Assembly: GCA_029907475.1 (NCBI GenBank)
Contig: JARYLU010000018.1
Span: 1-55,057, forward strand
Length of the DNA stretch: 55,057 nt
Direction: 5' to 3'
Source of the DNA: Bacillota bacterium
GTDB taxonomy: Bacteria; Bacillota; DSM-12270; Thermacetogeniales; Thermacetogeniaceae
Part shown: piece after piece, positions 1 to 54,706 of the stretch
How the letters are laid out: every line of letters begins with the position of its first letter
Numbering within the stretch: position 1 is the stretch's first letter
Position numbers and translations under genes: made by a program
Notes under the pieces: model-generated
Database searches by the model: none
Seen by the model: the letters and a program-made list of their open reading frames with translations, nothing else
What the model was told of the DNA's origin: nothing

Positions 1-69
1 TGGATCACTTTTGCTTTATCACTGGTGGATCACTTTCACATTATCAGGTGGATCAATTCTATATTGACA
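1..69 (+). mobile_element. Right end of an IS21-like element, body outside the window
   Basis: Three copies of the core GGATCA (preceded by GGT in copies two and three) stand 25 and 23 bases apart and are followed by ATATTGACA. Read from the other side the end is TGTCAATATAG. Clusters of such repeats with a terminal 5'-TG...CA-3' are known from IS21-family ends. The window's right edge carries the same core in inverted orientation. No transposase (IstA/IstB) is visible here. The exact outer boundary near base 69 is inferred. An alternative is that these are MuA binding sites of the adjacent Mu-like element. Confidence 0.5.
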
Positions 70-2079
70 AACGCAACAAAGCACGCAGCACTGCTTTTAA
101 ATATTTCAGAAAGAGCTATTCGGGGAAAAATTCAAGCTGGCTGTTATGAAGTCAGGGAAATTAGAAGTGCTCAGGTTGGTGGGCGTGGCGGTAAATCCTA
201 TGAAATTCATATTTCTTCTCTACCTCCTCAAGCAAGGAAACAATACCTGGAAAATCTCCAGGATATGAAAAATGACGTTACGGAATCCGGCCAGAACGCA
301 CCGGAGAATAAAGAACCGGAATTTACAACGCTGGCCGGCTACATCAATAAATACGGCGCTGACGCAGTGGACAAGGCGCTGCAAATAGAAGCCGCCATAA
401 GGGACATTGAAACCGCCCCTGACCGCTTGGAGGTCGGGCGCAGAGTCCACAAATGGGCCAGGCTCTTTGATGTTACAGACACGACTATCAGGAACTGGAG
501 GAGAGATTACGCGGCCAACGGCTTGACAGGTCTGTTCCGGAAGGAGCGGGCAGAAAAAGGAACCAGAAAAAGCACCTGTGAAGCCGCCGCTGATCGGCTG
601 AAATTAATATTCCTGGCCGATAACAAAATCACTCTCAAAGAAGCCTATAAGCAGTTAAAGAAAGAGCTTAACAACACCGGCCCGGATACCTGTTTAGAAT
701 GCTACTACTCCGGCCAGTGCGCGGATATGGACAAAAACGGCTGGAAAATCGGCTCATACAAAACAGCGCAGCGGATAGTCAAAGAACTGGAGTACGGAGA
801 GAAAAAGCGTTACCGGGAAGGCTTGCAGAAATGCCGGGCGGATGCCATGCCCAAAGGGCGGGTTGACTTTACCAAATACTTGGTTAACGAACGCTGGACA
901 AGCGATCACCATACCTGCGATTTCTTCTGTGTGGACGAATACGGCTACCTGGCGAGGCCGCACCTTACCGTTTGGCAGGATGTGCGATCAAGAGTCATAA
1001 CCGGCCTTACACTGAGCTTCCAGGGTAATTCCCATACAATCGGGCTTGCCTTTGCCCACGGGATACTGCCGAAACCAGGTTCACCAATAAAGGGCATCCC
1101 CAAAGAGACGTACATGGACAACGGCAAGGACTACCGTTCCCATTACCTGGGCCAACCTGAGAAGGTTACAGGCCGCCACGAGTACACCACTGAAATGCGT
1201 GGTCTGTTCTCAATGTTGAAAATTGAACCGCACTACTGCGAGCCTTACAGTCCGTGGAGCAAACCCCCGGAATCCTTCTTCCGGACATTTAAGATGCAGT
1301 TTTCCGTACATCAGCCCGGATACACCGGCGGTTCACCGGACGAAAGGCCGGAAGGCCTTGATAAGGAGCTTAAGAAGCTGAAGGCTGAAGGTAAGATATT
1401 AACTCTGCAAGCGGCCTACGACAGGATAATTGACTGGGTAATGAACGACTATCACCATCAAGTACATAGCGAACTTGGAGACACCCCAATGAATGTATTT
1501 TTGAACGCCCCCAGGTATGAAGGCGGGACGGTATCACAAAATGTGGCCGCAATACTGTTGTACCACACCGAGAAGAGAAAAGCCGGGCGTGACGGCATCC
1601 GCTTCAAAAACGCGCTATACAAAGACCGCGCCCTTTATCCGTTGCAAGACAAGTGGGTTCAGGTTCGATATGATCCCTTCAACCTCAGCAGCATCATTGT
1701 GGAGCACGAAGGCAAATTCGTCTGCATAGCCGAGAGGTACACGGCCATGCGGACCCAGGAGGACGTAGAAGCGAACGCCAAAGAACAAGCCTACTATATG
1801 AACCGGATTAAAGAAAAGCATGAAAAGTATGTTCGCGGTTCTACCCCGGTCAGGCGCAAAAAGTCCAAAGAGGTTGTTGTCGGGGAAACGCTGGACAAGC
1901 CGGAAGAAAAAGATGTTGTTCGCATAACCGGCCTGGAGCAGGCGGCCAAGATGCGCCAGAAAAGCCAGGCCGGCAAGAAGCCCACTCCCCCGCCGGAGAC
2001 AGAAGCGCCCGCCGGTTTTGAATGGTACCGGCTGGGATATGAGGAGTTTAAGAAAGCCGCTGCGGGAGATGAACAATAA
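64..2079 (+). CDS. Mu-type DDE transposase (MuA-like)
   Basis: Transposase that would bind the ends of the Mu-like element and join them to target DNA. A helix-turn-helix resembling MuA N-terminal domains opens the protein (ALLLNISERAIRGKI), followed by a second helical DNA-binding region with a Cys cluster (CLECYYSGQC). The RNase H-like core gives candidate catalytic D281 (in TSDHH), D352 (in YMDNGKDY) and E403 (in PPESFF), matching MuA D269/D336/E392. A C-terminal barrel and a basic stretch about 90 residues from the end follow. The start is uncertain: TTG at 64 sits in the last bases of the upstream IS end, GTG at 25 lies inside IS repeats, and neither has a clear ribosome site, so a few native codons may be lost. 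MuB follows after 27 bases. The catalytic core is intact and the family assignment is confident. Confidence 0.9.
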   Translation: MTNATKHAALLLNISERAIRGKIQAGCYEVREIRSAQVGGRGGKSYEIHISSLPPQARKQYLENLQDMKNDVTESGQNAPENKEPEFTTLAGYINKYGADAVDKALQIEAAIRDIETAPDRLEVGRRVHKWARLFDVTDTTIRNWRRDYAANGLTGLFRKERAEKGTRKSTCEAAADRLKLIFLADNKITLKEAYKQLKKELNNTGPDTCLECYYSGQCADMDKNGWKIGSYKTAQRIVKELEYGEKKRYREGLQKCRADAMPKGRVDFTKYLVNERWTSDHHTCDFFCVDEYGYLARPHLTVWQDVRSRVITGLTLSFQGNSHTIGLAFAHGILPKPGSPIKGIPKETYMDNGKDYRSHYLGQPEKVTGRHEYTTEMRGLFSMLKIEPHYCEPYSPWSKPPESFFRTFKMQFSVHQPGYTGGSPDERPEGLDKELKKLKAEGKILTLQAAYDRIIDWVMNDYHHQVHSELGDTPMNVFLNAPRYEGGTVSQNVAAILLYHTEKRKAGRDGIRFKNALYKDRALYPLQDKWVQVRYDPFNLSSIIVEHEGKFVCIAERYTAMRTQEDVEANAKEQAYYMNRIKEKHEKYVRGSTPVRRKKSKEVVVGETLDKPEEKDVVRITGLEQAAKMRQKSQAGKKPTPPPETEAPAGFEWYRLGYEEFKKAAAGDEQ

Positions 2080-2106
2080 ACAAATACAAGAAAGGAGCGG
2101 ATGTCT

Positions 2107-2913
2107 GTGAAAAGAGGCGAACTGAGCAGAAAGGGGCTATCGGTGGTTAGAACTGAGGAGCCTCAAAAAGAAAGGCACGACAGCGGAAGCAGCCTGATTG
2201 AACTGGGAACCTGGGAAACGTCAGATTTCGTTCAATCAATCGGCATGTGCTTCCGCTGCCGCGAGGAGCGCACCATGGGACTCCTTATTGGGCCGCCCGG
2301 CTCCGGCAAGACCACTGTCATTAACTCCTTCGCCCAAAGGTTTAATGACACAGTGCTCATTACCGCCACGGTGACCATGGCCGTTAAGGACTTACTGGAG
2401 GTCATTGCAGGAGCAATCGGCGTTACCGTTTACGGCGGCAACAACCAACGGTTTAAACAAATCGCCGAAGCCCTGAAGCGCCATCCAGTAACCTTAATCG
2501 TCGATGAAACAGAAAATCTCATAACCAGGTCGAGTATATCAAAAATTGAAATACTCCGTCAACTGCATGACATGGCCGGAATCGGGGTTATATTCTGCGG
2601 CACGCCCCGGCTGGAAGAGTTAATAATCCGTGGCCCCAATGGCCGGGACAACCTTGCGCAGCTATATTCACGCATTTTATACCGCTACAGGCTGAAGGGA
2701 ATATCCGGCAAGGAAGTAACGAACATTCTCACACAATACACAGCAGACAAAGCGGCTGTTGATGAATTAACGGCCATTGCCACCAATACCGCCAGGGGCG
2801 GCCTTCGGATGTTCACTAATGTTCTGAGGCGGTGCCTGACCATCTCACAGAACACGGGAGAACCGATAATTAAGGACATGGTACTGCAGGCGACGGGCAT
2901 GATGATCATATAG
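2107..2913 (+). CDS. MuB-like AAA+ ATPase, transposition target selector
   Basis: ATPase partner of the MuA-like transposase; MuB proteins coat target DNA, deliver it to the transpososome and confer target immunity. Walker A is GPPGSGKT (about residues 62-69) and Walker B is TLIVDE (about 131-134), with an AAA+ lid region to the C-terminus. At roughly 268 residues it is shorter than Mu MuB (312) and lacks an obvious long N-terminal HTH, as is common in Firmicutes versions. GTG at 2107 is preferred because AAGGAG at 2092-2097 is nine bases upstream; ATG at 2101 would be only three bases from it. It directly follows the transposase in the same direction, so the two are probably co-transcribed. 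Confidence 0.88.
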   Translation: MKRGELSRKGLSVVRTEEPQKERHDSGSSLIELGTWETSDFVQSIGMCFRCREERTMGLLIGPPGSGKTTVINSFAQRFNDTVLITATVTMAVKDLLEVIAGAIGVTVYGGNNQRFKQIAEALKRHPVTLIVDETENLITRSSISKIEILRQLHDMAGIGVIFCGTPRLEELIIRGPNGRDNLAQLYSRILYRYRLKGISGKEVTNILTQYTADKAAVDELTAIATNTARGGLRMFTNVLRRCLTISQNTGEPIIKDMVLQATGMMII

Positions 2914-2929
2914 CGGGAGGCGCTGCTCC

Positions 2930-2989
2930 ATGGTAAATATCGCTTACTGGAAAGGAGGTAGCCAGGAAGACGGTATGGGAAGCGGCTGA
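2930..2989 (+). CDS. Possible 19-residue peptide between MuB and GemA
   Basis: A short frame (MVNIAYWKGGSQEDGMGSG) has GGGAGG about ten bases upstream. It fills part of the 131-base gap between the MuB-like and GemA-like genes. It resembles nothing I recognise and may be chance or a leader peptide. The rest of the gap carries only the GemA ribosome site. Confidence 0.18.
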   Translation: MVNIAYWKGGSQEDGMGSG

Positions 2990-3044
2990 ACCGCTTCCGG
3001 TGTGAGAGCCTCGGAGGAATACGTTAAGCGAGGAGGAAGCCGTC

Positions 3045-3461
3045 ATGGCATCAATCACAAAGCCCCAGGTCAGGAAAATATGGGCGACGTCTAAGGAGTT
3101 GGGCCTTGATGAGGAAACAGTTTATACCATCGTCTACCGTGAAACGGGCTGTGACAGTATCTCAAGCCTCACAAAAGAACAAGGGGTAGACGTAATCAAC
3201 GCCCTGGTGTCTCTAAAGGAACAGAAGCCGCTCCGGCCGGGGATGGCCACGGAAAAGCAATTGTGGCTCATCAGCAAGCTGGTAAAAGACCTTGGTTGGG
3301 ACGACAATCCCAAGAGGTTGCAGGGTTTTGTTAAGCGCCTGGTCAAGGTTGATAACCCGCGCTGGCTGACCCAGCAATCAGCCTCCAAAATAATCATTGG
3401 GCTTAAAGCCATCCAGCGGCAGCAAATGGAGAAGCAGGCCGCCCGTGAATCGAGTCAGTAA
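3045..3461 (+). CDS. GemA/gp16-like phage regulatory protein
   Basis: Small basic protein of the Mu GemA (gp16, DUF1018) family. In Mu, GemA modulates host gene expression and DNA topology early in infection; the biochemical role is not settled. The recognisable pattern is the N-terminal helical segment (TKPQVRKIWATSKELGLDE), a central MATEKQLWLISKLVKDLGW block and the C-terminal WLTQQSASKIIIGLKAI block, which is the family signature in Firmicutes Mu-like prophages. A strong AGGAGG lies just before ATG 3045. Its place after MuA and MuB is the expected early-region order, which supports the call. Confidence 0.82.
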   Translation: MASITKPQVRKIWATSKELGLDEETVYTIVYRETGCDSISSLTKEQGVDVINALVSLKEQKPLRPGMATEKQLWLISKLVKDLGWDDNPKRLQGFVKRLVKVDNPRWLTQQSASKIIIGLKAIQRQQMEKQAARESSQ

Positions 3462-3546
3462 CCGGTGGAGATGTATATAGGCGCTGTCGAATGCAGCCCC
3501 TATGTCAAGGAATAAAACCCATATTCACGAAAAGGAGATGAAACGA

Positions 3547-3918
3547 ATGGTAAACTTTGGTGACAGGTTCAATCAGTTTCTGCTGGAAAGAAAGGCGGAA
3601 GCCGCCGACGAGACTCTTAAAGGCGAGCAGTATAAAGAATTCGTGGAACGGTACGGTCTGCTTCGCGCTCAATTAGTGGCAAGCATTGCCGAAGACCTGC
3701 AGGACCTACTTATTCAATTAGAAGACTGTAAAAATGAGCAAGGTGCTTACGAAAACGAGGTAATATACAAGATCGGCTTTATGGATGGCGTCCAGTTCGG
3801 CCAAGGGGTAATTATTGAGGAAGCCGGACAAGTGATAAAAGGCGTTACTGGATGCGTGCAGTTGCAGGCCGACGAGGAAGAAGATAAAAAGGTTTGGGAG
3901 ATGCGCAATGCTAGTTAA
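3547..3918 (+). CDS. Hypothetical Mu-like prophage protein
   Basis: An acidic, mostly helical protein of 123 residues that I do not recognise. The segment YKIGFMDGVQFGQGV looks like short motifs in small uncharacterised Firmicutes phage proteins, but this is not enough for a family name. ATG at 3547 is chosen because AAGGAG at 3532-3537 is nine bases upstream; the in-frame ATG at 3502 has no ribosome site. The C-terminus is a run of Asp/Glu followed by KKVWEMRNAS. It overlaps the start of the next small frame by 11 bases, suggesting translational coupling in the prophage early operon. Confidence 0.6.
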   Translation: MVNFGDRFNQFLLERKAEAADETLKGEQYKEFVERYGLLRAQLVASIAEDLQDLLIQLEDCKNEQGAYENEVIYKIGFMDGVQFGQGVIIEEAGQVIKGVTGCVQLQADEEEDKKVWEMRNAS

Positions 3919-4042
3919 CAGACCGATTGATGAACAGCGAATAAACCGGATTAACACCACCAAAGAAGAGGCCCAGCGCCTCTTCTTCGTTTGTCATTCG
4001 GAAATGTTTCCACTTTCCGGACCCAGTATAAAGGCCTTTTAG
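3908..4042 (+). CDS. Possible 44-residue phage protein overlapping its neighbour
   Basis: A short frame starts at ATG 3908, seven bases after GGGAG, inside the last codons of the preceding gene, and ends with TAG at 4040. The product begins MLVNRPIDEQRINRINTTKE and is amphipathic. A perfect 10-base inverted repeat (3963-3972 with 3978-3987, loop CCAGC) lies within the frame and could act as an RNA hairpin; no solid T-run follows. No family is recognised. The overlap and ribosome site argue for a real gene, the small size against certainty. Confidence 0.38.
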   Translation: MLVNRPIDEQRINRINTTKEEAQRLFFVCHSEMFPLSGPSIKAF

Positions 4043-4100
4043 AAGGCCCTACAATGGCCCTGACAATAAAGTGAAGGGGGTAATACCAAGGCAAAATTAT

Positions 4101-4149
4101 TAACGCGAAATAACGCAAAGTAACGCGGTTTTAACGCGATAGTAACGCG
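4101..4149 (+). repeat. Five helically phased TAACGCG repeats
   Basis: TAACGCG or TAACGCA occurs at 4101, 4111, 4121, 4132 and 4143, all in the same orientation. The periods are 10, 10, 11 and 11 bases, about one helical turn, so the copies face the same side of the DNA. They lie about 40 bases before the start of the tail chaperone-like gene, in a 148-base gap (4043-4190) that holds no other feature. This is the form of a cooperative protein-binding array; the protein is unknown. Confidence 0.7.
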
Positions 4150-4190
4150 GGGGGTATCCCCAAATGTTTCTCGGACAGGAGGGCAAACAG

Positions 4191-4514
4191 ATGGACAGGC
4201 CGACTGAAGAAGAAATGAAGGCTTGGAGGGCCAAGTATGGCGCGATTTTAGAGTTTAGCACGGAAGAAGGCTACCCCAATTACTGTTTTGTCTGCCGGAT
4301 GCCAGATCGCCAGGCATTGCGGAGATATGTAAAAAGGGTTGCTAAAGATGTTTATGAAGCCGCATATAGTCTGCTCCTTAAATGCCTGCTTTACCCGAGT
4401 GTTGAGGAGGCGCGGCGGCTGTTCAAGGAGAAGCCGGGAATACCCTTCGCGCTGGGAAGTGAGTTGCAGAAGGCCGTGGAAGCCGACTTGGAATTTTGCG
4501 TGAAGCGTTCGTAA
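4191..4514 (+). CDS. Phage tail assembly chaperone-like protein
   Basis: A 107-residue protein lying directly upstream of the tape measure gene, where tailed phages encode the tail assembly chaperone. The pattern RPTEEEMKAWRAKYG, a central LLLKCLLYPSVEEARRLF block and a final ALGSELQKAVE helix resemble chaperone-like proteins of Mu-type and Myoviridae-type tails (similar to DUF6848-like families). This assignment is by pattern and position and is not certain. ATG 4191 is preferred over ATG 4164 because AGGAGGG is seven bases upstream of it. No slippery-sequence extension typical of lambda-like chaperones is evident. Confidence 0.55.
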   Translation: MDRPTEEEMKAWRAKYGAILEFSTEEGYPNYCFVCRMPDRQALRRYVKRVAKDVYEAAYSLLLKCLLYPSVEEARRLFKEKPGIPFALGSELQKAVEADLEFCVKRS

Positions 4515-4577
4515 ACATATTGCCACGCCAGTTGATTAATAAAGCCTTAAATTACTTTCAAAGAAAGGAGGTAAACT

Positions 4578-7004
4578 TTGGAATCGCTGTTCAAGCTGGG
4601 CGTGATAGTCACGGCCATAGACAAACTAACCGGCCCGGCCCGAAAGATGGCCCAGGCCGTAGGAAACCTCGATAAGTCTATTCAAGGGGCAAAGGGTATG
4701 GTGGAATTTGGGCAGCGCATGACCCTTTCCGGCGCGCTGATCCAGGGCGCAGCCGACAAGATGCGAAGCTCTGTTTTTAGCATCATGGAACCCCTGCAGG
4801 CGGTGGAGGACGCTTCCGCCCCCTTAGCTACGGTGGTCACCTCCACCATGGGCGGCGTGGAAAAGTCCCTGGAGGCGGCCACGTCGGCGGCGCTGGACTG
4901 GAGCAAGAACCACAGGGCCGCAGCGGACGAGTTTATTAAAACGGCGTATATCATGGCCGGCGCGGGACTGAACGACGTTCAGGCCATCGAGGGTACCAGG
5001 ACAGCCCTGGCTGTGGCGACGGCCACCATGGGGGACAACGCGGAGGCAGCCAACCTGCTGGCCGTGATCTACAACAACATGGGCGACAAGACTGCAGACG
5101 TGCGTACTGAAATGGCCCGCCTGGGCGATGTTGTCACGGCGACCCAGGGAGTGTTCCAGATCGCCAACATGGCCCAGTTGAGTGAAGGGTTGAAGTACGC
5201 CATCCCCTCAGCCTTGCAGGCGAGAATGAGCATTGAGCAACTGTCCGCCATCGTCGGCCAGCTCAACAACGCCGGACTGCAGGGCAGTATGGCCGGCACC
5301 GCCTTCGCGGCCACCATGCGGCAGATGACCAAGGCGTCAGCCGAACTAGGGTTTAAGGTGGCCAAGACGGCCGACGGTAGCGTGGACTTCATCGGCACCC
5401 TGGAAAACATCAAGAAGAAGTACGGCGACCTGTCCAAGTTAAGCCCGGAGGTGCAGATGGCCTTCCAGCAGGCGTTTGGCGACGAAGGCCTGCGAGCGGT
5501 GGTACTACTGAGCAACCAGACCGATGTCATGCGCAAAAACCTGGATGCGGTCACCAACTCCATGGGCGCGACCACCAAGGCCCAGCAGACCATGGAGGCC
5601 ACGGCCAGCGCCCAGATGCAAATACTCAAAAACAATATTGACGCCCTGAAAATGGACGTGGCCAAGGAACTGCTGCCGGTGCTGCAGGGCATCATTCCGG
5701 ACTTAAAGGAGATTGTGACACAGTTTTCCGGCTGGGCCAAGGAACACCCGGAACTGATCAAGACCGGGGCACTGCTGGCTATGGTGGGCACGGGACTGCT
5801 GATGATCCTGGCCCCCATCCTTACCGTAGCCGGCGCGTTCATCACCATGGGGGGTTACGCCATACAAGGCGTTACCAAGGCCGTTCAGGGTATTCTCTGG
5901 ATGAAGGGAAAACTGACCGACAAGGCCACCCTGGACGCCATCAAAAGAATAGAAACCGGCATGAGGGCAGGCTTCAGCGCCGCCGGGCAAGGGGCCATGT
6001 CGGCGGGCCGCTGGGTGGTCTCCCTGGGCAAGAACCTGGGACAGGCCGCCGTCAACGCCGGCAGGTTCGCCATGGTGGCCGGGGGCAAGGGCCTGGAGGC
6101 CGCCAAAGCCATGGGACTGGCTGTGTTCAATTTCGGCAAGCAAGCCCTCTTTACGGCCATCCGGGCGCTGCCGGGGCTTATCGCCGGCGTCTGGAGCTTT
6201 ACCGCCGCCCTGCTGGCCAACCCCATCACCTTTATTGTGCTGGCGATTATCGGACTGATCGCGGTCATCGTGCTGCTGATAAAGAACTGGGATACCGTCA
6301 AGGCGGCGGTGATCAGCGCCTGGGAGACCATCAAGGGAGCCGTAAGCGCTGGCGTGGCCTTTGTCGGCAACCTGGTCAACAGCTTCTGGACGGTCATCAA
6401 GGGCGGCATAGACAAGGCCCTGGCCTGGCTGGGGGGATTATGGGACACGTTCAAGGAATCAGGCCGGGCGCTCTGGGATGCCTTCACCGACGGGTTGAGG
6501 TCCATCATCAACAAGCCGGTGGAAGTGGTAAAGAGCGGCCTGCAAAAAATCCGCGACATGCTGCCGTTTTCCGACGCCAAGACAGGCCCGCTTTCCGAGC
6601 TGACCAAGAGCGGCCAGGCCATGATTACCACCTTTCAGGGCGGCGCGGAAAGGAAAATGGACGGGCTGCAGAAGGCAATGGCTGCCGGCCTGGCCGGGAT
6701 TGCCCTGGCTTCCCCCCTGCCCCCTCTCCCCTCAGCCCTGCCGCCATTAAGCGGAGTGGCTCAGTACGAGGTGGTCCAGGGACCCCTTCCGGCAGTCCCG
6801 AAAGTGACGGATATTCTCACCGCCGAAGTACCGGACCTGACCGGGTACTTCGCGGCACCGGCAAAAGCTGGGGCGGCTGGGGTGGCCGGACGACCCAGGC
6901 CGGTAACAATCAATGGGGACGTTCACCTGCACGTGGACAAGGTGGACAGCCCGGAAGATTTGTGGCAGGCGCTGCGGCGCTTTGCTGAGGAAGTGAGCGG
7001 GTAA
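4578..7004 (+). CDS. Phage tail tape measure protein (TP901 core)
   Basis: Tape measure protein, which sets tail length and helps tail assembly and DNA ejection. The N-terminal 350 residues contain the TP901-type core (VATATMGDNAEAANLLAVIY; LNNAGLQGSMAGTAFAATMR). Hydrophobic segments near residues 395-425 and 525-570 are typical of the family, and the C-terminus ends in an amphipathic VHLHVDKVDSPEDLWQAL motif also usual there. At 808 residues it is moderate in length, which would imply a tail of roughly 120 nm at about 0.15 nm per residue. TTG at 4578 is chosen because AAAGGAGG is seven bases upstream. GC content is visibly higher than in the genes on either side. No other tail structural gene follows, which is unusual. 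Confidence 0.88.
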   Translation: MESLFKLGVIVTAIDKLTGPARKMAQAVGNLDKSIQGAKGMVEFGQRMTLSGALIQGAADKMRSSVFSIMEPLQAVEDASAPLATVVTSTMGGVEKSLEAATSAALDWSKNHRAAADEFIKTAYIMAGAGLNDVQAIEGTRTALAVATATMGDNAEAANLLAVIYNNMGDKTADVRTEMARLGDVVTATQGVFQIANMAQLSEGLKYAIPSALQARMSIEQLSAIVGQLNNAGLQGSMAGTAFAATMRQMTKASAELGFKVAKTADGSVDFIGTLENIKKKYGDLSKLSPEVQMAFQQAFGDEGLRAVVLLSNQTDVMRKNLDAVTNSMGATTKAQQTMEATASAQMQILKNNIDALKMDVAKELLPVLQGIIPDLKEIVTQFSGWAKEHPELIKTGALLAMVGTGLLMILAPILTVAGAFITMGGYAIQGVTKAVQGILWMKGKLTDKATLDAIKRIETGMRAGFSAAGQGAMSAGRWVVSLGKNLGQAAVNAGRFAMVAGGKGLEAAKAMGLAVFNFGKQALFTAIRALPGLIAGVWSFTAALLANPITFIVLAIIGLIAVIVLLIKNWDTVKAAVISAWETIKGAVSAGVAFVGNLVNSFWTVIKGGIDKALAWLGGLWDTFKESGRALWDAFTDGLRSIINKPVEVVKSGLQKIRDMLPFSDAKTGPLSELTKSGQAMITTFQGGAERKMDGLQKAMAAGLAGIALASPLPPLPSALPPLSGVAQYEVVQGPLPAVPKVTDILTAEVPDLTGYFAAPAKAGAAGVAGRPRPVTINGDVHLHVDKVDSPEDLWQALRRFAEEVSG

Positions 7005-7061
7005 TTCAAGAGGCCAAGTCTACCGTTAATAGACTTTAATTAAAATGAACGGAGTGATTAT

Positions 7062-7256
7062 ATGCAAGCGAAAATCAACAGGTTACTGGGTGTTACCGAG
7101 GAAGATTTTAAAAAATATGGTCAGGAGTCATATAACCATTCAGGCATGATCCAGACCAACAAGGACAGCTTTTGTCAAAGTGATGATATACAGGTAAAGG
7201 TAAATAAGTTACTGGGTGTTTCAGAAGAGGACTTTAAAAAGTATGGTCAGGCTTAA
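7062..7256 (+). CDS. 64-residue protein with a duplicated LLGV-EEDFKKYGQ motif
   Basis: The protein is nearly all one motif used twice: residues 4-20 (KINRLLGVTEEDFKKYG) and 46-62 (KVNKLLGVSEEDFKKYG), joined by a polar linker of about 25 residues (YNHSGMIQTNKDSFCQSDD). Similar short motifs occur at the C-terminus of some Mu-like head protease/scaffold proteins, so it may be a scaffold-tail remnant or a bivalent binding peptide; this is inference from memory. The ribosome site is GGAG about ten bases from ATG 7062. It lies between the tape measure gene and a coiled-coil gene, and AT content rises sharply here. Confidence 0.6.
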   Translation: MQAKINRLLGVTEEDFKKYGQESYNHSGMIQTNKDSFCQSDDIQVKVNKLLGVSEEDFKKYGQA

Positions 7257-7284
7257 AGGCATAAAAACGGGTCTTGATTTTAAA

Positions 7285-7303
7285 TTAAGGGTATAGCCCT
7301 TAA
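7285..7303 (+). other. Small inverted repeat before the coiled-coil gene
   Basis: TTAAGGG (7285-7291) pairs with CCCTTAA (7297-7303) across a five-base loop. It sits about 20 bases upstream of ATG 7326 and just before the ribosome site. It could be an operator or a short RNA hairpin; no T-run follows, so it is not a good terminator. Confidence 0.3.
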
Positions 7304-7325
7304 AACGATAGGAAGGGGTAAAAAT

Positions 7326-8249
7326 ATGACCAGGAAAACCAATATGGCAGTAGCCAACCAAAATCCATGGTATGAAGCTCTTAAAACCACTATCTCCAAA
7401 ATACAACTTGAAAATGACGGATACAAAAAGAGGATACACGAACTGGAAAGAGAGGCTACCGAGCTAAGGAAAAGCCCAAACTATTACCCTGGCTCTGACC
7501 TAAGCGCCAAGGTAAACGGCATCCAACTTGATGTCAACAGGCTACGCTCTCAAATTAACGCGAATCAAGAGCGCCTGGACAAGTTTCAAAAGCAGCTAGC
7601 CCTGGGCTATATTCCAAGTGATAAGTTAGTGGAGTTAATCAACCTTAAGGCCCAGATGAAAGAACAAAAAGCAGTTGCGGAGGAATCTTTGGCAGAGATT
7701 GCCGCCTCAAGAAATGAATTGAAAGCAGAGATTGAACAGCTTGAACTTGAGGGACAGTTTTTAAGGCAATTTGGGAAGACCCCTCTCGAAGTTAAAAGGG
7801 CCGAAAACATCCAGGAGCGCTTGCGGGAACTAAAACAAGAGCTTGTGGATTTAGATGAGGGAGAAAAAGGTTTTAAGGCTGTAATGCTGGCAAATGAGTG
7901 TCAGAGTTCTATAACGTTACCAGGATTAGAAACACCCGTAAACAAGCTCCGCCAGTTGGAGCAAGAATTAGACATGGAAACCAGGGGCTTTATTAATGAC
8001 ATACAGCATGAATGGGATCAGCAAATGGCAGGAATTAACAAGGCAGCGGAGGCATTGCGAGAAGCTATTAAGGGGCTGGGCTATATCAAAGCCAAAGTAT
8101 ATCTAAGGGACAAAGAATTGGCAGAAGCAGGTTATCCCGAAACTGGCCTGGCAGGTAAATGTCAGTTGCCCATTACCGAAGGCCTGCAGTTTTCTCCCCA
8201 ATCAATTCGCGGGCTTTTCTGCCAAGGGGAGAGCATTGGCAAGGATTGA
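7326..8249 (+). CDS. Coiled-coil protein of the prophage region
   Basis: A 307-residue protein whose first 230 residues are almost continuously heptad-patterned (repeated LE/EL and KL pairs, few prolines), so it should form long coiled coils. The last 60 residues are less regular and end in a polar tail (FSPQSIRGLFCQGESIGKD). There is no signal peptide or membrane segment. I cannot assign a function: candidates are a phage scaffold, an internal virion protein or a host-interaction factor. AGGAAGGGG precedes ATG 7326. The gene ends 29 bases before a strong hairpin, which it shares with a gene on the opposite strand. Confidence 0.6.
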   Translation: MTRKTNMAVANQNPWYEALKTTISKIQLENDGYKKRIHELEREATELRKSPNYYPGSDLSAKVNGIQLDVNRLRSQINANQERLDKFQKQLALGYIPSDKLVELINLKAQMKEQKAVAEESLAEIAASRNELKAEIEQLELEGQFLRQFGKTPLEVKRAENIQERLRELKQELVDLDEGEKGFKAVMLANECQSSITLPGLETPVNKLRQLEQELDMETRGFINDIQHEWDQQMAGINKAAEALREAIKGLGYIKAKVYLRDKELAEAGYPETGLAGKCQLPITEGLQFSPQSIRGLFCQGESIGKD

Positions 8250-43388: not shown

Positions 43389-43934
43389 TTAAAACTCTGG
43401 TTCGATCAGCCCGTAGTTACCGTCTTTCCGGCGGTAAAGGACGTTAACCTGTTCTGTTTCCGCGTCCCTGAAGACAAAGAAATCGTGCCCCAGCAGGTTC
43501 ATTTGCAAAATCGCTTCCTCCACCGGCATCGGCTTCATGGCGAAACGCTTCGTCCTTACCACTTTCGGTTCTTCGTCCTTCCTGTTTTCTTCACCCAGCG
43601 CCGTAATCAAATCTTTTAAGCCCTGGTTTCGGAACCGCCGGTACAGCTTGGCCCGGTACTTCTGAACCTGTTTCTCAAGCTTGTCGGTAACCTGATCGAC
43701 GGCGGCGTAAAGGTTCTCTCCACCCCCCTCTTCCCCGCGCAAGATCATGCTGTTGAGAGGAATGGTCACCTCCGCGACATAGCTCCCCCGTTCCGTAAAA
43801 ACCGTTACCTGAGCTTCGTGGATGTGATCAAAATACCGGGTTAACTTCGCTAACTTTTTCTCTACATAATCCCGTAGCCCCTCAGTCACTTCGACGTTTT
43901 TTCCCCGGATGGTGATTTTCACCTGGACATCCAC
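43389..43934 (-). CDS. hpf: Long-form ribosome hibernation promoting factor
   Basis: Binds the 30S decoding region in stationary phase and pairs ribosomes into inactive 100S dimers. The N-terminal S30AE domain (residues 1-100, VKITIRGKNVEVTEGLRDYV) is joined to the C-terminal dimerisation domain (about 120-181, VVRTKRFAMKPMPVEEAILQ; HDFFVFRDAETEQVNVLYRR), the pattern of the long form found in Firmicutes. ATG 43934 has AAAGGAG five bases upstream. A sigma-H-type promoter sequence lies before it, in line with the dual sigma-B/sigma-H control known for B. subtilis yvyD. It sits in the syntenic place between the flagellar chaperone gene and secA. Confidence 0.95.
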   Translation of the reverse strand: MDVQVKITIRGKNVEVTEGLRDYVEKKLAKLTRYFDHIHEAQVTVFTERGSYVAEVTIPLNSMILRGEEGGGENLYAAVDQVTDKLEKQVQKYRAKLYRRFRNQGLKDLITALGEENRKDEEPKVVRTKRFAMKPMPVEEAILQMNLLGHDFFVFRDAETEQVNVLYRRKDGNYGLIEPEF

Positions 43935-44079: not shown

Positions 44080-44277
44080 CTATACTTTCACGACCCTGGC
44101 AGCCTGGGGTCCGCGGGCACCCTGCACGATTTCGAACTCAACCCGCTGGCCCTCACTCAGAGTCTTGAAGCCCTCCTCCTGAATCGCTGAGTAGTGAACG
44201 AATACGTCTCCACCACCGTCACACTCGATGAAGCCGTATCCCTTCTCCTGATTGAACCACTTGACTTTGCCTTGCAT
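44080..44277 (-). CDS. Cold-shock protein
   Basis: Small OB-fold RNA/DNA chaperone of the CspA/CspB family that melts RNA secondary structure at low temperature. The RNP1 motif is KGYGFIE (residues about 12-18) and RNP2 is VFVHYSAI (about 25-32), both intact; aromatic contacts W8, F9 and F16 are kept. Length 65 is typical. AGGAGG is about 12 bases upstream of ATG 44277. A near-consensus promoter drives a leader of about 80 bases with a GC-rich stretch ending in six T's, so folding of the leader may regulate it. Terminator after the gene; monocistronic. Confidence 0.95.
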
Positions 44278-44365: not shown

Positions 44366-44394
44366 ATCATAACACAGGGGGAAGACCTTGTCAA
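44366..44394 (-). promoter_or_regulatory. Strong sigma-A promoter of cspA
   Basis: On the minus strand TTGACA (44394-44389) and TATGAT (44371-44366) with 17-base spacing, near-perfect consensus. The leader of about 80 bases contains the GC-rich segment at 44318-44346, followed on the minus strand by six T's at 44317-44312. It could act as an attenuator or as a cold-responsive structure; pairing is only partial, so this is tentative. Confidence 0.75.
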
Positions 44395-44478
44395 TTTCCC
44401 GGAAATTTAAATGGCTGTAAGTGAATTTTTGAATGTCGAAAAAAGTGTGCGCGAAACACACAATAACTTACCAATTCC

Positions 44479-44552
44479 TGTGGATAATGTGGATAAAACT
44501 GTTCATAACCTTAATTTCATTAACATTTTGGTGTGGATTAATCTGTGGATGC
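44479..44552 (+). other. DnaA-box cluster
   Basis: TGTGGATAA occurs twice head to tail at 44479-44487 and 44488-44496, both perfect complements of the consensus TTATCCACA. Three weaker copies in the same orientation follow: TGTTCATAA (44500), TGTGGATTA (44532) and TGTGGATGC (44544). They lie in an AT-rich gap of about 350 bases between cspA and the FliT/FlgN-like gene. No dnaA, dnaN or rpmH gene is near, so this is more likely a DnaA-titration or regulatory cluster than the origin. Confidence 0.75.
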
Positions 44553-44630
44553 AAAAATTTTGTCAAATAAAACGACGATCTGTCTATTTCTAATTATTTT
44601 TTCGCCCCTGATAGCCTGATAATTCGTTGA

Positions 44631-45125
44631 TTATTTTTTCAGGTCCAAAACACTTCCCCCGTCCGAAAAACTTCCCTGGTAGGCCCGGTGCGCAGTGCGG
44701 TTATCACGGATATCCCGAAGAGACTCCCTAACTGCTTTGAGATCTTTTTCCAACAGGAGGGCGCTCTCCCTGTCGTACCGCTGAATCTCTTCAATGAGCC
44801 CGGCCAGTTCGCGCAAAGTTTCTTTCAACTCCGCACATGATGGAACATTTACCAGCTTCTCAAGCTTTTCGAGTTTAAATTCTTCAAGGTGGAAAATTTG
44901 TTGGACCTCTTCCCTGAAACCGGCCAGCTTCCGGCCAGTTTCATCAATCTCCTCCATAAGTGCCTGACGCCTGGCAAAAATTTCGTCAAGCTGCAAGATA
45001 CCCCCCGGCCGCATCAATTCCTGCTGGCGCCGGGCAAGGTCCCTCATCTCGTGAAAACGCCGGAGTTGGAGCTTGTAACCGGAGACAAGTTCAGCCATAA
45101 GCTGGTAAAACCGCTTCATTTTCAT
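44631..45125 (-). CDS. FliT/FlgN-like flagellar export chaperone
   Basis: A 164-residue, almost wholly helical protein with heptad patterning (LVSGYKLQLRRFHEMRDLAR; LEEFKLEKLEKLVN; LRELAGLIEEIQRYDRESAL), ending in a disordered GSFSDGGSVLDLKK tail typical of FlgN-type chaperones, which keep late flagellar substrates unfolded until export. In B. subtilis fliT lies directly upstream of hpf, so position favours a flagellar chaperone; length is closer to FlgN. The exact partner is unknown. ATG 45125 follows GGGAGGG. The region up to 45369 holds the divergent start of the M20 gene and no clear promoter. Confidence 0.6.
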   Translation of the reverse strand: MKMKRFYQLMAELVSGYKLQLRRFHEMRDLARRQQELMRPGGILQLDEIFARRQALMEEIDETGRKLAGFREEVQQIFHLEEFKLEKLEKLVNVPSCAELKETLRELAGLIEEIQRYDRESALLLEKDLKAVRESLRDIRDNRTAHRAYQGSFSDGGSVLDLKK

Positions 45126-49394: not shown

Positions 49395-49967
49395 TTAGAT
49401 GGAGCGCCGCCGCAAGGTCCTGATAGATACTTCATGGTCGCCGAGGATTTCCCGAATTGACCTGTTTTCTTCTCCGATTTCGTTAATGTTTAACTCAATA
49501 CGGTCCTGGCCTTTTCGCAGTTCCTCCTGCCCCTGGCACAACTCTTCCTGTCCCCTGCAGAGATCATCCACACCCTGCCGGAGTTCACCCACTTCCTTGC
49601 GCAGCTCTTCCTGTCCCTTGCGGAGCTCACCTACCTCCTGGCGCAGCTCTTCCTGCCCCTTTCGCAGTTCTTCCTGCCCCTGCCGGAGTTCACCCACTTC
49701 CTGGCGCAGTTCGCCCTGCCCTTTATGGAGTTCATCCACCTCCTGGCGCAGCTCTTCCTGCCCTTTTCGTAGTTCATCCTGCCCCTGGCGGAGCTCTTTA
49801 ATCTCGCCCTCGATCCTGGCAACGGAATGAGTGAGATTATCGATTTCGGCTTTGTGCACTTCGCTGGCATGCTCTAATGCTCTAAGCAACTGAGTGTGTT
49901 CACCAAGTTGCCGGCCGATCTGTTCAAACTTTTGAATCACCAGTTCCTGAAACTTCTCGCCATCCAT
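49395..49967 (-). CDS. Heptad-repeat coiled-coil protein
   Basis: A 190-residue protein whose middle (residues about 57-155) is built of about 14 tandem seven-residue units of the type ELR-GQE (ELRKGQE, ELRQEVG and variants), encoded by a 21-base minisatellite. The N-terminus (KFQELVIQKFEQIGRQLGEH) and C-terminus (LNINEIGEENRSIREILGDH) are ordinary helical. It should form a long parallel coiled coil. Related repeat proteins are common in Firmicutes and their function is unknown. The repeat number is likely to vary between strains by slippage. It begins the accessory tail of the window. Confidence 0.75.
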   Translation of the reverse strand: MDGEKFQELVIQKFEQIGRQLGEHTQLLRALEHASEVHKAEIDNLTHSVARIEGEIKELRQGQDELRKGQEELRQEVDELHKGQGELRQEVGELRQGQEELRKGQEELRQEVGELRKGQEELRKEVGELRQGVDDLCRGQEELCQGQEELRKGQDRIELNINEIGEENRSIREILGDHEVSIRTLRRRSI

Positions 49968-51685: not shown

Positions 51686-54600
51686 CTACCTCGCGCTGCC
51701 AGGTTCGCTGTAGGTCAGTGCGAATACCGTGTCGGTCAGCCAGCGCCGGAACGACTCATTGTCGCTGAATTGCTTAAACAGCTCGGTGTCATCCCGAAGT
51801 AGCGCGGTCATCACCCGAACGAGGGCCTTGTCGTGCTCGATACGTGCGTTCTGTTTGTCGGAATACTTGCGTGCATTCTGGTAGGCGGTGTCAGCAGCTA
51901 CCCGCGCGGGAATCTCCTCGGTGATCAGTTTGCGCACCCGATCGGCGTCGGTCCAGGGAATGTTGCCGAACTGATCGTTAAAAGCCTTGATGATGTTCGA
52001 GAGACGGTCGAGCTCCGGTTCGGGCTTGTGTCCACCACCCACAGTGGGCACCGGTTCGATCTCGGCATCCGCATCGGGAAGCGCGATCCTCATGCTCGCC
52101 TGCTTTTCGACCCGGTAGCTGTCCATGTCGATCGCCTCGAGGATGCCCTTTGAGAGGTCTTCCTCTTTCGGCGCCGGCAGCTTGGGTACCAGGAAGTTGA
52201 GGAAGATCGATAGCTTCTCCCACTCGGCGTTGGTGTAGGGGAGGATCGAAGACAGAAAGTTATAGGTTCGCAGAAACGCCTTGGCTTTGCCCTTGAAGTC
52301 GACCTGACCGTCCTCGTCGAGATGCTCCATGTAGGTGGCGACGCAGGCATCAAGGATCGGGTCGAGGCGGTCGCGGTCGGCGCCGTCCAGGTACAGCCGC
52401 ACCAGCTCTTCCACCTGTTCGAGCGCGTATACCTGGTAGCTATCGAGGTCGGACTTGAGGTCGTGCAGCTTGTTCGGGTCGGTCTCGTCGGCGAGGATGG
52501 TCGTCCGGTAGTAGGGCTCGAAGGCCTTTTGGATCACCTCCGGGTCGTTGACGAAATCGAGGACAAAGGTGTCGTGCTTCTGGGGGTGGGCGCGATTGAG
52601 GCGCGAAAGCGTCTGCACCGCCTTGACCCCAGAGAGCACCTTGTCCACGTACATCGTGTGCAGAAGCGGCTCGTCGTAGCCGGTCTGAAACTTGTCGGCG
52701 CAGATCAAAAACCGATACGGGTCCTCCCGGATCTTGTCGGCGATCTGGTTCGAGGGAAAGCCGTTAAGGCTGGCCTCGGTGACCTGTTGACCGCCATACT
52801 CGTGCTCACCCGAGAAGGCCACAATCGCCCGATAGGGGCTCTTGCGCTCGGCCAGGTACGCCTGAAACGCATGGAAGTACTGGATGGCGCGCTCGATCCC
52901 GCTGGTAACCACCATGGCCCTTGCCTGGCCGCCGATCTTGCCCTTGGCAATCACCTGCTCGTGAAAGTGGTCCACCATGATCTCGGCCTTGAGCCGGATG
53001 GCGTACTCGTGCCCCTCGACGAAGCGGCGCAGCTTCTTCTGGGCCTTTTTGACATCGAATTCCGGGTCGTCCTCGATCTTCTTGATGAGCCTGTAGTAGC
53101 TCTTGACCGGCGTGTAGTTGGCCAGCACATCCAGGATAAACCCTTCCTGAATGGCCTGTTTCATGGTGTAACTGTGGAATGGCCTGTGCTTGACCGTGCC
53201 ATCGGGCTGCGGGTCGGGCGTGCCGAAAATCTCGAGCGTTTTGTTCTTGGGCGTGGCGGTGAAGGCGAAGTAGCTCGCGTTGGGCAGCAGCTTCCGGGCC
53301 TCCATCAGCCGGTTGATCTTGTCCTCGAAGGTCTCGTCCTCACCCTCCGCTCCGGCCTCCGACAAGGCCATGCTCATCTTGGTCGAGGTGCGGCCACCCT
53401 GACTGGAATGCGCCTCGTCGATAATGATCGCAAAACGGCGCCCGCGGTGCTCGTTGCCGATTTCGTCGAGGATGAACGGGAACTTCTGGAGTGTCGTGAT
53501 GATGATCTTCTTGCCGCCCTCGATGAAGCGCCGCAGGTCGCCCGAATGCTCGGCGTGCCCCACCGTGGCGCTCACCTGGGCGAACTGCTTGACCGTATCC
53601 CGGATCTGCTGGTCCAGGATGCGATGGTCGGTCACCACGATGATGGAATCGAAAACCGGCTTGCCGTCTTTCGCCAGGCCAATCAACTGATGGGCCAGCC
53701 AGGCGATGGAGTTGGACTTGCCGCTGCCGGCCGAATGTTGGATAAGGTAGCGCCGGCCCACGCCGTGCGCCGCCGCGTCCGCCAAAAGTTTTCGCACCAC
53801 GTCGAGCTGGTGATAGCGGGGGAAGATCTGCCGTCGCCGTTTCTTGCCGGTCTTGAGGTCTTTCTCCTCAACGAGTTGAGCGTAGTTTTCGAGGATGTCG
53901 GTCAGGCTCTCACGGGTGAGTATCTCCCGCCACAGGTAATCGGTCTTGAGCCCCTGCGGATTGGGAGGATTGCCCGCGCCGTCGTTCCATCCCTTGTTGA
54001 AAGGCAGAAACCACGACGCCTTGCCCGCAAGGTGGGTACAGAACCACACCTCGTTTTCGTCCGCGGCGAAGTGCGCCACGCAGCGGCCCAGCTCGAAGAG
54101 CTTCTCGCGCGGGTTGCGGTCGCGCCTGTACTGCTCGATGGCGTCGTGCACCGTCTGTTTGGTGAGGCGGTTTTTGAGCTCGAAGGTGAAGACCGGCAGG
54201 CCGTTGATGAAGAGCACAAGATCCAGCGCCCGCTGCGACTCGTCGCGGCTGTAGCGGAGCTGGCGCGTGACGGTGAAGCGGTTCTGCTCATAGAGCGCCC
54301 GCGCTAGCTCGTTTCCGGGGGAAGGCGTGCCGTAGAAGAGTTCAATGCGGTAAGGCCCGTGCTGGATGCCGCCTCTCAGCACATCCACTACTCCGCGCTT
54401 GCTCACCTCGCCCTGAAGACGCGCCAGAAACTTGCGCCGCGTGGGGCTGTCGTTGTCGAGATCGAGCGCTTCGGCGACCTCGGGCTGCGTCGAGCGCAGA
54501 AAGGCCGCAAGTTGAACCAAATCGACGCAGTACTCCCGGTCGTAGTCGGCCGGGTCGCCGGGCAACCATCCCACACCGCCGTAGGGTGCCGGCGTCTCGG

Positions 54601-54706
54601 CAGCGACCGCCGGGGCGCCGGCAGGCCGGGGCACGCAGTCACTGCCCGTCAGCGCCCGGCAGATTAGGCTTTCGAGCCCGGCTTCGCTGGTGTCGGTTGA
54701 TTTCAT
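51686..54706 (-). CDS. hsdR: Type I restriction enzyme R subunit
   Basis: Motor and nuclease subunit of a type I restriction-modification system; with HsdM and HsdS it translocates and cuts unmethylated DNA. The PD-(D/E)xK nuclease shows D162 (RALDLVLFI) and E176/K178 (FTFELKNRL). Superfamily 2 helicase motifs follow: Walker A SAGSGKS (325-331), motif II DEAH (430-433), SATP-like FAFTATPKN and a helicase C-terminal half with LSRLNR. The C-terminus ends normally (DTVFALTY) and then gains a few residues (SEPGSAR) from the ghost gene. GC content is clearly higher than that of the surrounding core genes, which suggests transfer. It overlaps the HsdS stump by four bases. Confidence 0.95.
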   Translation of the reverse strand: MKSTDTSEAGLESLICRALTGSDCVPRPAGAPAVAAETPAPYGGVGWLPGDPADYDREYCVDLVQLAAFLRSTQPEVAEALDLDNDSPTRRKFLARLQGEVSKRGVVDVLRGGIQHGPYRIELFYGTPSPGNELARALYEQNRFTVTRQLRYSRDESQRALDLVLFINGLPVFTFELKNRLTKQTVHDAIEQYRRDRNPREKLFELGRCVAHFAADENEVWFCTHLAGKASWFLPFNKGWNDGAGNPPNPQGLKTDYLWREILTRESLTDILENYAQLVEEKDLKTGKKRRRQIFPRYHQLDVVRKLLADAAAHGVGRRYLIQHSAGSGKSNSIAWLAHQLIGLAKDGKPVFDSIIVVTDHRILDQQIRDTVKQFAQVSATVGHAEHSGDLRRFIEGGKKIIITTLQKFPFILDEIGNEHRGRRFAIIIDEAHSSQGGRTSTKMSMALSEAGAEGEDETFEDKINRLMEARKLLPNASYFAFTATPKNKTLEIFGTPDPQPDGTVKHRPFHSYTMKQAIQEGFILDVLANYTPVKSYYRLIKKIEDDPEFDVKKAQKKLRRFVEGHEYAIRLKAEIMVDHFHEQVIAKGKIGGQARAMVVTSGIERAIQYFHAFQAYLAERKSPYRAIVAFSGEHEYGGQQVTEASLNGFPSNQIADKIREDPYRFLICADKFQTGYDEPLLHTMYVDKVLSGVKAVQTLSRLNRAHPQKHDTFVLDFVNDPEVIQKAFEPYYRTTILADETDPNKLHDLKSDLDSYQVYALEQVEELVRLYLDGADRDRLDPILDACVATYMEHLDEDGQVDFKGKAKAFLRTYNFLSSILPYTNAEWEKLSIFLNFLVPKLPAPKEEDLSKGILEAIDMDSYRVEKQASMRIALPDADAEIEPVPTVGGGHKPEPELDRLSNIIKAFNDQFGNIPWTDADRVRKLITEEIPARVAADTAYQNARKYSDKQNARIEHDKALVRVMTALLRDDTELFKQFSDNESFRRWLTDTVFALTYSEPGSAR

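Follow-up and report, generated by a model that had tools for sequence, protein, structure and literature searches.

A conserved DnaA-box array away from the replication origin, with a predicted and helically phased Spo0A box, at the comFC/flagellar-cspA-hpf-secA locus of Bacillota

The question raised by this locus is what a cluster of DnaA boxes does between a cold-shock gene and a flagellar chaperone gene, at a site without origin genes. The window, the whole 55,057-nucleotide stretch of DNA that was analysed, belongs to a draft genome (3.01 Mb in 114 contigs) in which dnaA and oriC lie on another contig (C13), and the preliminary description of the site likewise noted no origin genes there. 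That description reported two consensus boxes head to tail and three degenerate boxes in the same orientation, and all five were recovered on the forward strand. Boxes 1 and 2 (44479..44487 and 44488..44496) are perfect, abutting copies of TGTGGATAA. Box 3 (44500..44508; TGTTCATAA, two mismatches) begins 3 bp past box 2, and box 4 (44532..44540; TGTGGATTA, one mismatch) and the degenerate box 5 (44544..44552; TGTGGATGC, two mismatches) lie at offsets of +53 and +65, respectively. The array, with offsets of 0, 9, 21, 53, and 65, spans 74 bp; the 3-bp gap is present in both box pairs 2-3 and 4-5, and the distance from box 1 to box 3 is 21 bp. Boxes 1, 2, and 3 constitute a tri-box core that was found phylum-wide.

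The genome count suggested in the preliminary description gave 23 perfect copies of TGTGGATAA, against 8 for a reversed control. With 23 boxes placed randomly, ∼9e-5 abutting same-strand pairs are expected, in keeping with the earlier judgment that the tandem is very unlikely to be a product of chance. Even when up to 2 mismatches are allowed, the perfect tandem occurs only once in the genome. Degenerate boxes are common in AT-rich DNA, and the 12 one-mismatch boxes in the window exceed the 6.7 expected, which would suit an accumulation of boxes by chance or mutation. Against this stand the unique tandem, the fixed spacing, the recurrence of the array at two syntenic loci, and the lack of any match to a reversed control pattern in 398 genomes. 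Chance clustering is refuted by conservation, and the probability left to it is negligible.

Conservation in relatives was clear at both the family and the phylum level. Among 15 family genomes, no insertion or deletion was present from box 1 to box 5, and the boxes were 90-99% identical compared with 52-57% in the flanks (mean column conservation of 95, 99, 98, 96, and 90% for boxes 1 to 5, respectively). For the phylum, a sample that takes in Bacilli (the same sites are met again in the Bacilli sample) was scanned with the pattern TGTGGATAATGTGGATAAnnCTGTTnATAAC, allowing ≤3 mismatches, alongside the reversed control. The core TGTGGATAA-TGTGGATAA-nnC-TGTTnATAA-C was detected in 183 of 398 genomes and the reversed pattern in 0 of 398; the majority of genomes in the sample have no core within 3 mismatches. 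When the region was used as a BLASTN query, the tri-box core alone was matched in distant families. The exact core is present, among others, in named records of Desulforamulus, Desulfofundulus, Desulfallas, Sporotomaculum, Thermincola, Clostridioides difficile (hpf), Laceyella, and Paenibacillus, and at tsaD in records that bear the label Candidatus Aerophobetes. Sequence comparison thus strongly supports the view that the array is a real extra-origin DnaA-box cluster of a known kind, one probably kept by selection.

Inspection of the genes flanking the core revealed two principal locations. Of 232 non-redundant sites, classified by tblastn of the flanking genes with dnaA sought within the fetched flank, 94 were assigned to locus A, 85 to locus B, 6 to a flipped form of A, 46 to other contexts, and 1 to a position beside dnaA; non-redundancy was set by flank identity only, and the genomes are phylogenetically non-independent. 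Locus A has the order comFC (or flagellar genes), array, cspA (where present), hpf, and secA, with TGTGGATAA on the opposite strand, and the array in the window is a site of this class. At locus B, the array lies 11-2152 bp (median of 129) past the matched 3′ part of tsaD, on the same strand. Orientation is locked at both loci; in the flipped-A sites, of which those named are from Bacilli, the motif is reversed relative to hpf. Among family-labelled genomes, locus A was found in 28 families and locus B in 27, with 17 common to both. Gut Clostridia MAGs account for many of the 46 sites in other contexts, and no gene was common to the contexts checked.

Agreement between the extended A and B consensus sequences continues beyond the core, in G residues at +42/43 and a box close to +53, and a box at +52/53 is also present at non-redundant A sites outside the family. 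This shared extended consensus implies that A and B are elements of one kind, a DnaA module that is independent of its neighbours. The genome under study itself retains a degraded B cluster 3′ of tsaD (contig C17, about 31.4-31.56 kb), which reads TGTGAATTT, TGTGGATAA, ttC, and TGTGTATAT in succession, followed by further boxes. A third recurrent tri-box variant, TGTGGATAATGTGGATAACTCTGTGGAGAAC and close forms, was observed in eight Bacilli genomes (L342-L349), in which neither tsaD nor hpf was detected within 1.5 kb of it. In one Clostridia genome (L301/L319), a pair of tri-box arrays, ∼250 bp apart, has a Mur ligase gene on one side and, on the other, a DnaB/DnaD-like gene for replication initiation (PF07261).

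Locus B connects the module to a characterized system. The gcp/ydiF cluster of Bacillus subtilis binds DnaA with a Kd of 0.15 μm and a 16-fold preference for the ATP form at low DnaA, and it is among the eight highest-affinity DnaA regions of that organism (PMC4447404). Like the gcp cluster, locus B lies at the 3′ end of tsaD, including in ∼14 sampled Bacilli genomes, and the array in the window is likewise an intergenic extra-origin DnaA-box cluster. In contrast, the window locus is not among the top B. subtilis DnaA regions (PMC4447404). The array in the window was also considered as an orthologue of the gcp cluster and rejected, being not 3′ of tsaD in a genome where the tsaD copy is a separate, degraded cluster. 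The comparison with B. subtilis clusters drawn in the preliminary description is nonetheless strongly supported by the cross-family conservation and by the sister copy at tsaD. The cluster itself was correctly recognized there, whereas its fixed spacing, the second conserved locus, and a phased Spo0A box found beside it had no place in that account.

The sequence TGTCGAA, the Spo0A-box core (PMC3485338; the same consensus is given in PMC5295017), is present as an exact match at 44434..44440 on the forward strand, 45 bp upstream of box 1. This predicted Spo0A box accompanies the array in 14 of the 15 family genomes, the remaining one having TGCCGAA. To the right of box 5, a second Spo0A-box-like sequence, TTTGTCAAATAAA (44559..44571, forward strand), is a candidate site that is less conserved in the family than the first, with the TGTC core kept and the remainder variable.

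Enrichment of the box extends to locus A in general. Within ≤150 bp of A sites, 104 occurrences of TGTCRAA were observed compared with 8.8 in dinucleotide shuffles, and an unbiased count of flanking 7-mers placed TGTCGAA first (37 of 63 non-redundant A sites), ahead of TGTGGAT. Position is equally restricted: TGTCGAA lies at −47 to −41 in 27 of 63 A sites, where 0.03 would be expected from composition, and in 0 of 70 B sites. The window copy differs from the B. subtilis gcp cluster in carrying a phased Spo0A box, which site B is without at that position. From −65 to −20 there are 57 upstream boxes, and every one is at −55/−56, −42 to −46, or −33/−34, in steps of approximately one helical turn; about a third of A sites have no Spo0A box near that offset. 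Given the resemblance between Spo0A and DnaA boxes (PMC5295017), TGTCGAA was considered as a mere degenerate DnaA box. That reading was rejected: at A sites where the exact TGTCGAA is missing, nothing like TGTGGATAA occurs at that offset. The genome under study encodes both DnaA and Spo0A, the latter on contig C1 (31935-32246, E 9.7e-45), and Spo0A is encoded in 57 of 59 A-site genomes, hence these genomes provide no contrast for co-loss of the box.

Sites for the two proteins also occur together in the B. subtilis oriC (Boonstra 2013 and Castilla-Llorente 2006, via PMC5295017), and in both cases a link between replication and sporulation is possible. There, however, the Spo0A boxes resemble DnaA boxes inside the origin (PMC5295017), whereas in the window TGTCGAA is a separate element, 44-45 bp from box 1, helically phased, and away from oriC. 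No mention of a DnaA cluster at comFC/hpf was found in the literature searched, which did not extend to Okumura 2012; relative to that literature, the locus (comFC/flg-cspA-hpf-secA) and the composite form with a Spo0A box are new.

Does the array act on the genes beside it? Downstream, on the reverse strand, lie cspA (44080..44277; cold-shock protein, PF00313, E 2.5e-31) and hpf (43389..43934; long-form hibernation promoting factor, PF02482/PF16321), and it is hpf that usually lies downstream at site A. On the other side is a flgN-like flagellar chaperone gene (44631..45125, reverse strand; PF05130, E 5.9e-9). Its place is occupied by comFC in most other families, and flgN linkage was rejected as a constant feature. 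A sigma-A-type promoter for cspA, TTGACA-17-TATGAT, is predicted at 44366..44394 on the reverse strand, its −35 element 84 bp from box 1.

An operator at which DnaA and Spo0A∼P repress or activate cspA-hpf(-secA), coupling hibernation and cold shock to replication and sporulation, would be consistent with several observations: at locus A the first known gene on the downstream side is hpf or cspA-hpf in nearly every case, a regulatory role is usual for Spo0A boxes, and at some B. subtilis clusters DnaA works as a transcription factor (PMC4447404). The geometry points the other way. Across the family genomes, anything from 65 to 420 bp separates the array from the cspA promoter, while the spacing of the Spo0A box to the DnaA boxes is fixed, which indicates that the Spo0A box moves with the DnaA boxes and not with the cspA promoter. 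In families f3, f34, and f42, cspA-hpf is ∼2.6 kb from the array, and an ABC-transporter substrate-binding protein gene adjoins the array where examined. The distance to hpf at locus A (158-3313 bp, interquartile range of 469-629) is looser than that to the comFC 3′ end (median of 109, interquartile range of 84-129 bp), in Bacilli the motif has the opposite orientation with respect to hpf, and the tsaD copy of the module has no constant downstream gene. Control of the cspA/hpf promoter is therefore the second choice after holding of DnaA, and we regard it as unlikely. The link to cspA, hpf, secA, or flagellar expression raised in the preliminary description is correspondingly weakened by the variable promoter distance, the remote cspA-hpf, and the inconstant flgN.

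An AT-rich intergenic region with three tandem boxes, which resemble the three beside the DnaA-trio in C. difficile oriC2 (PMC7561715), might be taken for a replication origin of secondary or relic type, or for a DNA-unwinding site. The location of dnaA on another contig, and its presence in the fetched flank at only 1 of 232 sites, make this highly improbable, and identification of the array as oriC itself was rejected because dnaA and dnaN are not adjacent. A scan for DnaA-trio repeats found none near the array, and it was a weak scan, as none was found in the dnaA-dnaN region of the same genome either. In one Bacilli genome (L357) the tri-box adjoins dnaA, and in G469 and G519, which carry the L357 variant, two tri-box copies ∼2 kb apart possibly flank dnaA as a bipartite oriC.

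Chromosomal position was examined in complete genomes of relatives. Six of these carry both loci, one on each arm, with A at 0.13-0.29 and B at 0.29-0.38 of the half-chromosome. In 8 complete relatives, the mean position of locus A along the half-chromosome is 0.23, a departure from uniformity (KS p 0.008, the genomes being related), and 11 locus B positions show no departure from uniformity (KS p 0.23, again among related genomes). These positions are no more than suggestive of an origin-side location for locus A in complete relatives. Copies on opposite arms at a moderate distance from oriC would fit a DnaA- or Spo0A-bound anchor on each arm that organizes the chromosome or segregates the origin rather than governing DnaA supply or transcription, and origin capture during sporulation involves SirA and DnaA (PMC5295017). 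However, no anchoring partner or precedent is known for loci A and B, and the arm positions may merely reflect gene order inherited by descent; an anchoring role is considered improbable.

The best explanation, and one that we hold to be somewhat better than evenly supported, is that the array is a DnaA-holding cluster with Spo0A input. Holding of DnaA at locus A is suggested because the architecture is common to locus B, the site of the B. subtilis gcp cluster. In the proposed sequence of events, DnaA would bind cooperatively to the abutting boxes 1 and 2 and to box 3, the 21 bp between boxes 1 and 3 being two helical turns, and would then spread to boxes 4 and 5. DnaA held at a fixed locus could make free ATP-DnaA for initiation at oriC less abundant or timed. 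Spo0A∼P, predicted to bind on the same helix face 45 bp upstream, may alter DnaA occupancy when growth stops or sporulation begins, in whichever direction. The array would probably in this way tie the supply or use of DnaA to the decision of the cell to stop growing.

Titration by the array is plausible by analogy with the six oriC-proximal B. subtilis clusters (Okumura 2012, via PMC5295017 and PMC13220808), which similarly comprise several boxes outside oriC; an origin-side position, as suggested for locus A in complete relatives, would be a further likeness, and an effect on free DnaA is likely on the same analogy. Deletion of the six clusters causes early initiation (PMC5295017, PMC13220808), and a major role for them was doubted in a 2017 review (PMC5295017). 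What sets the present array apart from those clusters is a core of fixed geometry (9 + 9 + 3 + 9 bp and then +53) kept across loci and families. Counted against holding, five boxes are few for titration, and the degraded tsaD copy in the genome under study, together with the absence of the core from more than half of the genomes, indicates an element that is dispensable or drifting.

In Escherichia coli, datA, DARS1, and DARS2 depend on IHF or Fis and on nucleotide hydrolysis or exchange. They too are DnaA-box loci outside the origin, with a tuning effect on the activity of DnaA, and no homology with the present array is claimed. Detailed knowledge of extra-origin DnaA clusters comes from only a handful of model bacteria, and opinions differ on what they do in B. 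subtilis; a module of fixed geometry at two loci in ∼38 sampled families implies that such clusters are old and selected. A broader proposal, which we put forward tentatively and at less than even confidence, is that many spore-forming Bacillota possess a dedicated non-oriC DnaA-Spo0A composite. Here, phased Spo0A∼P would control the array at the comFC-hpf junction as a conserved cis-acting checkpoint between replication and sporulation or stationary phase, and a twin without the phased box would lie at tsaD on the other arm. The coordinates reported here are exact enough for deletion, and direct Spo0A input, coupling replication control to sporulation away from oriC, is predicted.

Other features of the window were apparent from the translations. 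Positions 25-8249 have the appearance of a Mu-like phage or remnant, with genes of transposase-like and MuB-like ATPase type as well as a tape-measure-like protein. At 49395-49967, a protein made up of near-perfect LRQEVGELRKGQEELRKG repeats (coiled coil) is predicted, and a large open reading frame at 51686-54706 resembles the HsdR subunit of a type I restriction enzyme.
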